Assembly: GCF_024498195.1 (NCBI RefSeq) | Contig: NZ_CP101824.1 | Span: 2,232,001 to 2,296,000, forward strand | From: Halovivax cerinus | GTDB taxonomy: Archaea; Halobacteriota; Halobacteria; Halobacteriales; Natrialbaceae | Reading direction: 5' to 3' | Length of the DNA: 64,000 nucleotides | Shown here: positions 29,021-33,184 of the stretch, piece by piece | Layout of the letters: each line of letters opens with the position of its first letter | Position numbering within the stretch: position 1 is the first letter of the stretch | Translations under genes and position numbers: made by a program | Notes under the pieces: model-generated | What the model saw: the letters and a program-made list of their open reading frames with translations, nothing else | Told to the model about the DNA's origin: nothing | Database searches by the model: none

Positions 29021-29433
29021 GTCCTGTCCCCTGACGACGGCCACCCTCTTAGTTCGTTTCGGGTGTAGGCGTAATCTATCGTGACCGTAGGCGCCGGTTT
29101 CTACGGTGTGGGTCGGGTCTCTGTCCGGTAGGTATCCGTCGATCGAAGCAGGGGCCAACGGCGACCGCCACTGTGTCTACCCCGACCGGGACTGTATCAG
29201 CGACCGGCACTGTATCTGCCACCGACCGGGACTGTATCAGCGATCGGCATTGGGTCTACCTCGACCGGGACTGTATCCGCGACCGCCACTGTGTCTGCCC
29301 CCGACCGGGACCGTGACCGCCATCGTCGGGGGAGCGCCAACACGGCCTCACCGTCGACGGTCTGCGGACCGACCGGGCCGGTCACCGGGTACGCGCCACC
29401 GGTCGTGGCGTTGATTCCGGGCCTCCATCGGTA
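29021..29433. repeat. Intergenic region with four imperfect 39-bp repeats
   Basis: No convincing gene in 413 bp. Copies start at 29161, 29200, 29240 and 29279 and end near 29321. Each has gcgaccg(g/c)cactgt(a/g)tct followed by a more constant gaccgggactgtatc half. They are diverged, so older than the 32-bp repeat at 3349. The side next to the ABC operon must hold that operon's promoter; I cannot point to a clear TATA box. Confidence 0.7.
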
Positions 29434-29442
29434 ATTATATTA
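29434..29442 (+). promoter_or_regulatory. TATA box of the leader RNA
   Basis: ATTATATTA stands out in GC-rich surroundings. Counting about 25 bp downstream puts the transcription start at about 29462-29468, exactly where the long stem of the structured RNA begins (29466). This agreement supports both the promoter and the RNA. Confidence 0.6.
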
Positions 29443-29465
29443 TCCGTCACGTCAATCACCCACAC

Positions 29466-29564
29466 GGAAGCCAGCGTCTCCATCTGTCGCAGGGGACAGC
29501 GCTGAGAAAGTCCCGGGTGCTGTAACCACCCGAGACGTCTGGCTTCCAAACCCGAGGAGGGTTT
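29466..29564 (+). ncRNA. Candidate structured leader RNA: three-way junction plus hairpin
   Basis: Closing stem: 29466-29480 pairs with 29532-29547 (nine plus six base pairs with one bulged T at 29538). Inside are two hairpins: CTGTC/GACAG (29484-29488 with 29495-29499) and GGGTG/CACCC (29515-29519 with 29527-29531), joined by the strand cgctgagaaagtc. A further perfect hairpin AAACCC-GAGGA-GGGTTT follows at 29548-29564, and its loop and 3' arm hold GGAGG, a ribosome binding site for the small ORF that starts at 29572. I do not recognise a known riboswitch class. The sequence could also be read as a small inverted-repeat element, but the nested hairpins and the TATA position favour RNA. Confidence 0.55.
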
Positions 29565-29571
29565 AGTCGCC

Positions 29572-29724
29572 ATGATTGCGTACACACCACCACGACAAAA
29601 AGGTCTCGCCCGCTCTCGGTCTAGAGAGTCGAAACGCTGTCCGCCGCTCACGTTCGATTTCCGGGATTGGGGGCCGAGATCACCTGGGTGGTCAGGTCGA
29701 CTGTTCCGTGGTGATCTCGGATGA
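29572..29724 (+). CDS. Upstream ORF of 50 codons in the leader, possible leader peptide
   Basis: The ATG is 7 nt after the leader hairpin, 11 nt after GGAGG (29556-29560). The 50-residue product (M-I-A-Y-T-P-P-R-Q-K-G then Arg/Ser-rich) is basic, unlike ordinary haloarchaeal proteins, so the peptide itself may not matter. Its TGA at 29722-29724 overlaps the ATG of the next gene by ATGA. Ribosomes translating it would run through and open the hairpin at 29674-29720 that covers the next gene's binding site. Role inferred; it could be a chance ORF. Confidence 0.4.
   Translation: MIAYTPPRQKGLARSRSRESKRCPPLTFDFRDWGPRSPGWSGRLFRGDLG
29674..29720 (+). promoter_or_regulatory. Hairpin that sequesters a Shine-Dalgarno sequence
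   Basis: CCGAGATCACC (29674-29684) is perfectly complementary to GGTGATCTCGG (29710-29720), with a 25-nt loop. The 3' arm contains GGTGATC, the Shine-Dalgarno of the gene at 29721, 4 nt before its ATG. The 5' arm contains GATCACCT, which copies the 16S rRNA 3' end. When folded, the start site would be closed. Confidence 0.6.
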
Positions 29725-29975
29725 CATCCGTCGACGGTTCGAGCGGCGTGGCTGGCGAGCCGCCTCGCACGCACGAGTGCTATCGGTGTGACCGTGACGT
29801 GGCGCCGGCGCTCCTCTTTCGGGTCACCGTCGAGGCGCCCGGGATGCTATCGGGAAAGTACGCCGACTCCGAACGGTACTGCTGTGAGCACTGCGCGGCC
29901 GCGATGAACCTGTCCGAATTCTCCTGGCAGGTGAAGACGCACGCTCGACGAGGTGACGATCGGACGGACGGGTGA
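29721..29975 (+). CDS. Small double-CxxC zinc-finger protein, function unknown
   Basis: An 84-residue protein with two Cys pairs: E-C-Y-R-C at 19-23 and Y-C-C-E-H-C at 52-57, likely to bind one zinc. Between them is F-R-V-T-V-E-A-P-G-M-L-S-G-K-Y. It resembles the many haloarchaeal zinc-finger microproteins, some of which affect stress response or biofilm. The gene is preceded by an elaborate leader (structured RNA, upstream ORF, SD-closing hairpin), so its translation is probably regulated, perhaps by metal or redox state; that last point is a guess. Confidence 0.75.
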   Translation: MTSVDGSSGVAGEPPRTHECYRCDRDVAPALLFRVTVEAPGMLSGKYADSERYCCEHCAAAMNLSEFSWQVKTHARRGDDRTDG

Positions 29976-32502: not shown

Positions 32503-33184
32503 GCCTGGTATCGAGGTACATCGTATTTTCGAGCAGCTATACTACCATCTCCCGTTTACAGAGAACGGATAGAAAAAAGAATGGGTACGTACCGGATAGT
32601 CACCCGTCTTGGCACCTGCTGAGGGCTTTATTACCGTTTCTACTCGGGCGTTGTTCACCCCTCCAAGATCGCCACGGAAGAGCCGTCACTAGGACGTTCT
32701 ACGGTGCTAGCAAAACCTGATACTTGTCATACGTGTTATATCCTGAAGCGGGAATTTTCGGGTGTGACCGCGACAAGTGTCTGCTTCACGCGACGACACA
32801 TATCGAATCGGCGTGTATCGCGCTTCGGCGAACCTACGGCGAGATTGTGCGCGCTCGAAACCGGTTCGGCCAGTTCCGCGAACTCGGTACCCAGTGTGGC
32901 GTACGGAATATCGAACGAGTGCTTGGCGCCGCTACCGAGGGATTATAGGTGTTTGAATACGGCAGGGTATAGACACTCAACACACGCCGAGCTATGAAAG
33001 AAAGGATGGTGGATCCGAATTGAAGGCCTCGGCACTCATAGGGCTCGTCGTCACCGGTTGCCGAGACCGGTTCGGCCCGGGTGCATCGTCATCGGCCACG
33101 CGGGGATAGTTGACGCCGGCACAAACCCGTTGCCCATCGGGTGTGCTTTGAGCCCGACATCCACTGGATGCACTCCTGATTCCG
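32503..33184. other. Gene-poor accessory stretch with a transposase remnant
   Basis: About 680 bp with lower GC than the flanks. The only recognisable content is a transposase C-terminal fragment near 32790-32948. I see no intact terminal inverted repeats or target duplications. The AT-rich start (32503-32600) probably contains the promoter of the beta-helix gene. Confidence 0.6.
32790..32948 (+). pseudogene. C-terminal remnant of an IS5-type (ISH) transposase
   Basis: The plus frame ending at the TAG at 32946-32948 encodes A-L-R-R-T-Y-G-E-I-V-R-A-R-N-R-F-G-Q-F-R-E-L followed by N-I-E-R-V-L. This matches my memory of the end of haloarchaeal IS5-family transposases (L-K-R-x-Y-G then W-x-x-Q-F-R-E-L, then H-N-I). 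Everything before it is missing, so it is dead. The match is from memory, not from a search. Confidence 0.5.

Follow-up and report, generated by a model that had tools for sequence, protein, structure and literature searches.

A covarying haloarchaeal leader RNA that appears to gate translation of a short reading frame and a coupled, predicted zinc-protein gene

Analysis of a 64-kb stretch of the Halovivax cerinus genome (hereafter 'the window', that is, the whole of the DNA examined) points to a haloarchaeal family of leader RNAs that appears to be undescribed, and that probably acts in cis to control the initiation of translation, in this instance together with that of a translationally coupled gene for a predicted zinc protein. 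The best reading of the element from its sequence is that of an orphan riboswitch-like translational switch combined with translational coupling. An initial annotation of the same DNA had proposed an aptamer followed by two steps of translational control; that outline is supported by the comparisons described below, with the ligand and the direction of control being deduced parts of it and the second step (at hairpin P6) being confined to units of the Halovivax type. The elements of the window copy are the following.

Plus strand, approximately 29433-29445: TATA box, AATTATATTATCC, identified from sequence and lying approximately 24-30 nt 5' of P1
Plus strand, approximately 29466-29574: leader RNA, a member of the covariance-model family
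Plus strand, 29466-29480: 5' strand of P1, GGAAGCCAGCGTCTC, supported by folding and covariation
Plus strand, 29532-29547: 3' strand of P1, GAGACGTCTGGCTTCC, common to both putative switch states, with either the P1 5' strand or the pre-AUG bases as its partner
Plus strand, 29493-29497: 5' strand of P2, supported by covariation
Plus strand, 29510-29514: 3' strand of P2, supported by covariation
Plus strand, 29515-29519: 5' strand of P3, GGGTG, supported by covariation
Plus strand, 29527-29531: 3' strand of P3, CACCC, supported by covariation
Plus strand, 29548-29564: hairpin P4, AAACCC-GAGGA-GGGTTT, which half-hides GGAGG; identified from sequence and from arms that change together by inspection
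Plus strand, 29565-29574: start region including the AUG, the anti-P1 partner (TGGC:GCCA, only 4 bp in this copy)
Plus strand, 29572-29724: ORF1, 50 codons, beginning MIAYTPPRQKGLARSR, its frame kept
Plus strand, 29590-29608: coding-region box (+29 A, +33 T, +36 C, +37 G), identified by conservation and lying within hairpin P5 in Natrialbaceae
Plus strand, 29674-29684: 5' arm of P6, CCGAGATCACC, which pairs with the arm that holds the Shine-Dalgarno sequence
Plus strand, 29710-29720: 3' arm of P6, GGTGATCTCGG, which holds the Shine-Dalgarno sequence of ORF2 and pairs with the 5' arm
Plus strand, 29721-29975: ORF2, a small predicted zinc protein of 84 amino acids (CxxC...CxxC), with homologues behind the same leader

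A check of the window's sequence located every element of the initial annotation where it had been placed. The TATA box and the 15-bp stem are both present, the former approximately 24-30 nt 5' of the latter, and the 5' end of the RNA would very probably fall at, or within a few nucleotides of, position 29466 at the base of P1, a helix of 15 bp with one bulged T. The predicted three-way junction is likewise formed in the window leader by P1, P2 and P3, and a 121-nt piece of the leader folds with an energy of -50.8 kcal/mol, versus -39.1 kcal/mol for shuffled sequences (z of -3.3; 0 of 200 shuffles). ORF1 begins with the ATG at 29572, 7 nt past the P4 hairpin, as had been noted. The P4 hairpin is also present, and its arms co-vary among copies by inspection (for example, AAATCC/GGATTT and AAAGCG/CGCTTT); the suggestion that its partial masking of GGAGG forms a conserved switch was rejected, because the loop of P4 and the GGAGG itself vary among copies, and the switch appears to lie instead in the mutually exclusive pairing between the bases preceding the AUG and the 3' strand of P1.

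The fold is supported by the manner in which its pairs change among relatives. In alignments of 35 and 82 leaders, which were fitted to the covariance model so that their pair counts lean towards the model structure, 91.9% and 92.2% of cells were paired, versus 76.6% and 67.9% after shuffling; both sides had changed in 21 of 25 pairs in the smaller set, and cells with changes on both sides numbered 475 (versus 160 when shuffled) in the larger. Sliding the partners by 1-3 columns in the 82 leaders reduced pairing to 36-46%. Changes on both sides were found at all 14 pairs of P1 in each alignment and, among the 82 leaders, in 5 of 6 pairs of P2 (93.5% of cells paired); in P3 the apical GUG...CAC pairs are near-invariant (81-82 of 82), the lower pairs covary and the loop is variable. 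Since the tip of P3 and the outer part of P1 are near-invariant within the Natrialbaceae, the covariation at those positions derives from other families. A plausible H-type pseudoknot (CGC/GCG), also near-invariant, was noted as a candidate around P2 in long forms, and two leaders enlarged by insertions (L011:3003-3165 and L225:1501-1663) measure 135 nt up to where P1 ends, versus 60-87 in others, with the core kept. Three features that lie outside the model's pairs support the matches independently: the anti-P1 complementarity and the coding-region box, both described below, and a TATA-like block that recurs in diverged relatives approximately 28-31 nt 5' of P1 although the covariance model does not include it. 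A conserved, structured domain with covariation, such as is sought in a riboswitch, is therefore found in the 5' leader.

In the diverged leaders, the bases immediately preceding the AUG duplicate the 5' strand of P1, so that the P1 3' strand could pair with either. Such start-side sequences, each of which fits its own P1 3' strand, include GAAGCC, GAAGACC, GAACCC, GCAGCC, AACAGCC, AAACCC and ACGACCC. The complementarity score of this anti-P1 pairing was 15.9, versus 11.7 when start regions were exchanged between sequences (0 of 2000), and 16.4 versus 11.8 when one sequence was retained for each distinct pairing (0 of 2000). In constrained folds the anti-P1 state lies above the P1 state by a median of 3.05 kcal/mol, with P2 and P3 mostly kept in both, and exchange of start regions raises that gap to 6.4-7.4 kcal/mol. 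Anatomically, this arrangement appears to be that of a translational switch working by strand exchange. The anti-P1 pairing of the window copy amounts to UGGC:GCCA (4 bp) and gives a state 7.4 kcal/mol less stable than the P1 state; the first step of that copy may therefore be weaker, or may use other pairings, and in Halovivax copies that step may have been lost or may count for less than P4-P6.

Two other readings bear upon these observations. The first, which we regard as distinctly unlikely, is that the switch has no ligand, and that two nearly equal folds would respond to temperature, internal potassium, transcription rate or 5'-strand trimming; the closeness of the two states (a median of approximately 3 kcal/mol) is what such a device would have, and loss of the P1 5' strand alone would suffice to close the start, but the sequences of the P3 tip and of the coding-region box are kept across families beyond any purely energetic need. 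The second, to which we assign the least probability, is that the element is a trans-acting small RNA or functions at the level of DNA, its nearness to a start codon being incidental: a stable fold in many copies would be consistent with that idea, which predicts neither the covariation of the base pairs nor that of the pre-AUG segment with P1.

The RNA element does not end at the start codon of ORF1, and takes in approximately the first 13 codons of the frame. Numbering from the A of the AUG, the nucleotides A at +29, T at +33, C at +36 and G at +37 are present in 68, 53, 59 and 60 of 69 diverged leaders, and in 126, 117, 125 and 125 of 133 Natrialbaceae leaders, respectively, and this box is kept ahead of unrelated proteins, partly at silent positions. 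Since +33 and +36 each occupy the third position of a codon ahead of differing amino acids, the constraint most likely acts on the RNA. Within the Natrialbaceae the box resides in hairpin P5, in which codons change together (AGA with CTC, GGA with CCC), and its lysine codon is AAA in 141 of 142 cases, versus 95 AAA and 115 AAG codons in predicted neighbouring genes. A pairing between CGAGAC of the leader and GUCUCG of the coding region was considered and dropped, since, unlike the local hairpin P5, it does not follow the leader's own variation.

The overlap of the upstream frame and the zinc gene by ATGA, as described in the initial annotation, was confirmed in the window and recurs widely. 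Within the Natrialbaceae, the order is that of a TATA box, the RNA, a short ORF (for example, M-I-A-Y-I-L-P-G-Y-K-R-P-A-R) and, mostly, a small protein with paired cysteines; ORF1 and ORF2 overlap by -4 nt in 79 units, by -8 in 17 and by -11 in 7, that is, in 103 of 128 units, so that the conserved overlap of a leader-ORF stop with a gene start that is expected of translational coupling is observed. The maintenance of this overlap despite the varying length of ORF1 is strong evidence that ORF1 is a real, translated frame. One unit (L021) has an ORF1 stop at codon 9 (CAA to TAA) and an intact zinc frame, and represents a natural test of coupling; three further loci (L024, with two tandem copies, L037 and L053) carry the leader and a longer ORF1 (beginning MIAYLPTRHKRLAN or MIAYPLPRHKRLAR) with no recognisable zinc ORF. 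In 102 of 114 units a GGTG, GGAG or GAGG motif lies no more than 18 nt upstream of ORF2, and P6 in the window copy is a perfect 11-bp hairpin over that Shine-Dalgarno sequence. The claim that such a hairpin covers the zinc gene's ribosome-binding site holds for the 29 type A (Halovivax-type) units, in which complementarity to the Shine-Dalgarno sequence exceeds that found upon exchange (0 of 1000 permutations), and is limited to those units; as a general feature P6 was rejected, given that 85 type B units displayed no such signal (509 of 1000 permutations).

From this anatomy and covariation we infer a mechanism, including its direction of control. When the two strands of P1 pair and close the junction, the start codon would be free and ORF1 translated; when the P1 3' strand pairs instead with the start region, initiation would be blocked. 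A ligand, ion or protein that recognizes the junction would shift the balance between the P1 and anti-P1 states. In the Natrialbaceae, ORF1 would serve as a short leader cistron, and ribosomes terminating at the ATGA would reach the zinc gene. In Halovivax units, ribosomes on ORF1 would first melt P6 and thereby expose the zinc gene's Shine-Dalgarno sequence, such that the zinc protein would be made only if ORF1 is translated. A more specific proposal, that the family constitutes the first widespread class of riboswitch specific to haloarchaea (binding a small molecule or ion, acting by strand exchange at the start codon, extending into the coding region and exceeding 30 copies per genome), is offered tentatively, as a possibility somewhat short of even.

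The proteins encoded behind the leader provide some indication of what such a signal might be. A total of 128 distinct predicted zinc ORFs were collected behind Natrialbaceae leaders, and are of two kinds: one (CYRCD...CCEHC) in Halovivax and some Natrialba, and another (CPxCG...PCGC) in other genera as well as in some Halovivax copies. Pfam and NCBIfam gave no family match above cut-off for either kind (the best Pfam match for the window ORF2 is DUF7836, at 17 bits versus a cut-off of 26.7), AlphaFold models of the zinc proteins were of moderate confidence (mean pLDDT of 71 and 73), and fold searches with those models returned no significant match to a solved structure (best E of 0.16 and 0.62); the description of ORF2 as a putative zinc protein is read from the spacing of its cysteines. 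Outside the Natrialbaceae, the frames behind the switch encode SWIM-like zinc fingers (so named from weak Pfam matches just under cut-off), small CxxC proteins, and others with no obvious zinc motif. That a single RNA precedes unrelated proteins speaks for a signal common to all of them, probably a small molecule, an ion or a shared factor, and against autoregulation by each product; a metal, such as zinc, is a reasonable first candidate because so many of the products are small predicted zinc proteins.

The same proteins bear upon the idea that the leader is a protein operator, in which the junction would be bound, and the balance between P1 and anti-P1 set, by the zinc protein itself or by a conserved RNA-binding protein acting in trans. 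Near-invariant paired bases at the tip of P3 beneath a variable loop would suit recognition by a protein, and many of the products are indeed small predicted zinc proteins; one RNA shape is unlikely, however, to bind each of a set of products as unrelated as SWIM-like proteins, CxxC ribbons and others, an objection that applies to binding by the RNA's own product and leaves a single common protein unaffected. We judge this explanation to be unlikely overall. Under the favoured reading of a translational switch with a shared signal, a large group of uncharacterised small predicted zinc proteins is tied to a common control, and identification of the signal could reveal their role.

The distribution of the element was traced with a covariance model of the leader (R1) and a broader one (R2), for which E-values are rough owing to shortened calibration and copy numbers from large searches are lower bounds. 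The leader occurs once in the window. Its own 3.9-Mb Halovivax genome contains 14 further full-length paralogues of the 542-bp stretch (70-80% identity), and at least 32 clear copies by R1 and 34 matches by R2. Relatives are present on named contigs of Natrialba, Natrinema, Halostagnicola, Halopiger, Natronorubrum and other genera, and the Natrialbaceae set comprises 163 distinct leader loci. Weak R1 matches in other families turned out to be real relatives: their P1, P2 and P3 sequences differ, and their fold and their place before a start codon are identical. With R2, matches were found in 152 of 392 Halobacteria genomes, in 57 of 86 genera and in eight families. Among 295 genomes sampled across the whole phylum, matches were confined to the same order; one genus of another family has at least 11-33 copies in 4 of 5 genomes searched, and a third family mostly at least one or two. 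The covariance search suggested in the initial annotation thus yielded covarying relatives in 57 of the 86 genera, with zinc proteins behind most Natrialbaceae copies. A search over genome contigs with the zinc protein alone returned no relatives, the leader being the better probe. Present in most sampled genera, with as many as 34 copies in a genome, and described by a proposed model of gating at the level of base pairs, the family provides a handle on the regulation of translation in archaea.

Homology among the full-length copies begins at the TATA box and stops near the zinc gene's stop codon. Such abrupt ends on copies of 70-80% identity, some of which adjoin transposase genes, raise the question of whether this is a dispersed repeat or mobile cassette whose RNA is kept for movement and not for regulation. 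Most characterised neighbours of the own-genome copies are nonetheless ordinary chromosomal genes (a helicase, an M24 peptidase, a tRNA splicing endonuclease and a solute-binding protein, along with some transposases), covarying start-codon pairing and ATGA overlaps are features of translation, and other families share the RNA alone, with different proteins; we therefore consider a mobile cassette highly improbable. Comparison with a second Halovivax genome provided one clear case of synteny (L025/L256), the other matches being mostly to a neighbouring paralogous family. Zinc-gene homology without a leader was found at L023:3001-3211 and L014:4786-4934, which are partial or decaying copies, and an IMG/VR viral contig (L242:8514-8604) contains a copy of the switch RNA with a downstream frame; no phage relatives of a SWIM-like product were matched.

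The statement in the initial annotation that the leader belongs to no known class agrees with Rfam scans, in which no family reached its gathering score for the element in the window or in 16 relatives; none of these scans matched crcB, a permissive scan of the locus returned only a chance-level match, and literature searches found no description of this leader RNA. (Elsewhere in the window, on the minus strand at 33025-33097, lies a C/D box RNA, sR-tMet (RF02163, 71.5 bits), which is unrelated to the leader.) As a candidate, the leader would work like a translational riboswitch. It resembles those of bacteria in being a junction RNA of the 5' leader with two nearly isoenergetic states, in which one strand of the closing stem can also enter a helix that masks the start region; unlike them, it hides bases close to the AUG and not the Shine-Dalgarno sequence, runs into the coding region, has no Rfam class and, among the genomes sampled, is found in Halobacteria only. 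In work on haloarchaeal riboswitches, the fluoride (crcB) riboswitch of Thermococcus kodakarensis was described as the sole natural one in archaea that had been determined by experiment when the paper was written, and many haloarchaeal messages as being without a leader (PMC8241225). The fluoride riboswitch and the present element are both archaeal leader RNAs for which translational control is presumed, but the haloarchaeal element has another fold, other genes and dozens of copies per genome.

ORF2 is similar to the haloarchaeal CPxCG-related zinc finger (mu-) proteins in its small size, paired cysteine motifs and many paralogues; one source gives 43 proteins of fewer than 70 amino acids with two C(P)XCG motifs in Haloferax volcanii (PMC10716476). 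It differs from them in matching no Pfam or NCBIfam family above cut-off and in its shared leader, which was not found described in the searches conducted. The short ORF with an ATGA overlap, and the hairpin over a second Shine-Dalgarno sequence, recall attenuators that employ leader peptides and translational coupling, although here ORF1 itself would be gated by a three-way-junction RNA and carries a conserved RNA box in its first codons.

Two further observations concern the surroundings of the units. At L302, L304, L315 and L321, the interval from the TATA box to the predicted start contains DNA palindromes (for example, TTGCTACGTAGCAA), which could possibly represent the operator of a transcription factor. 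In the Halovivax genome, 6 of 9 clusters of eCIS_core (PF13699) genes have an RNA/zinc unit within 3 kb, versus a random mean of 0.56 (0 of 100,000), and loci such as L013, L016, L019, L020 and L028 are the zinc units associated with that observation.
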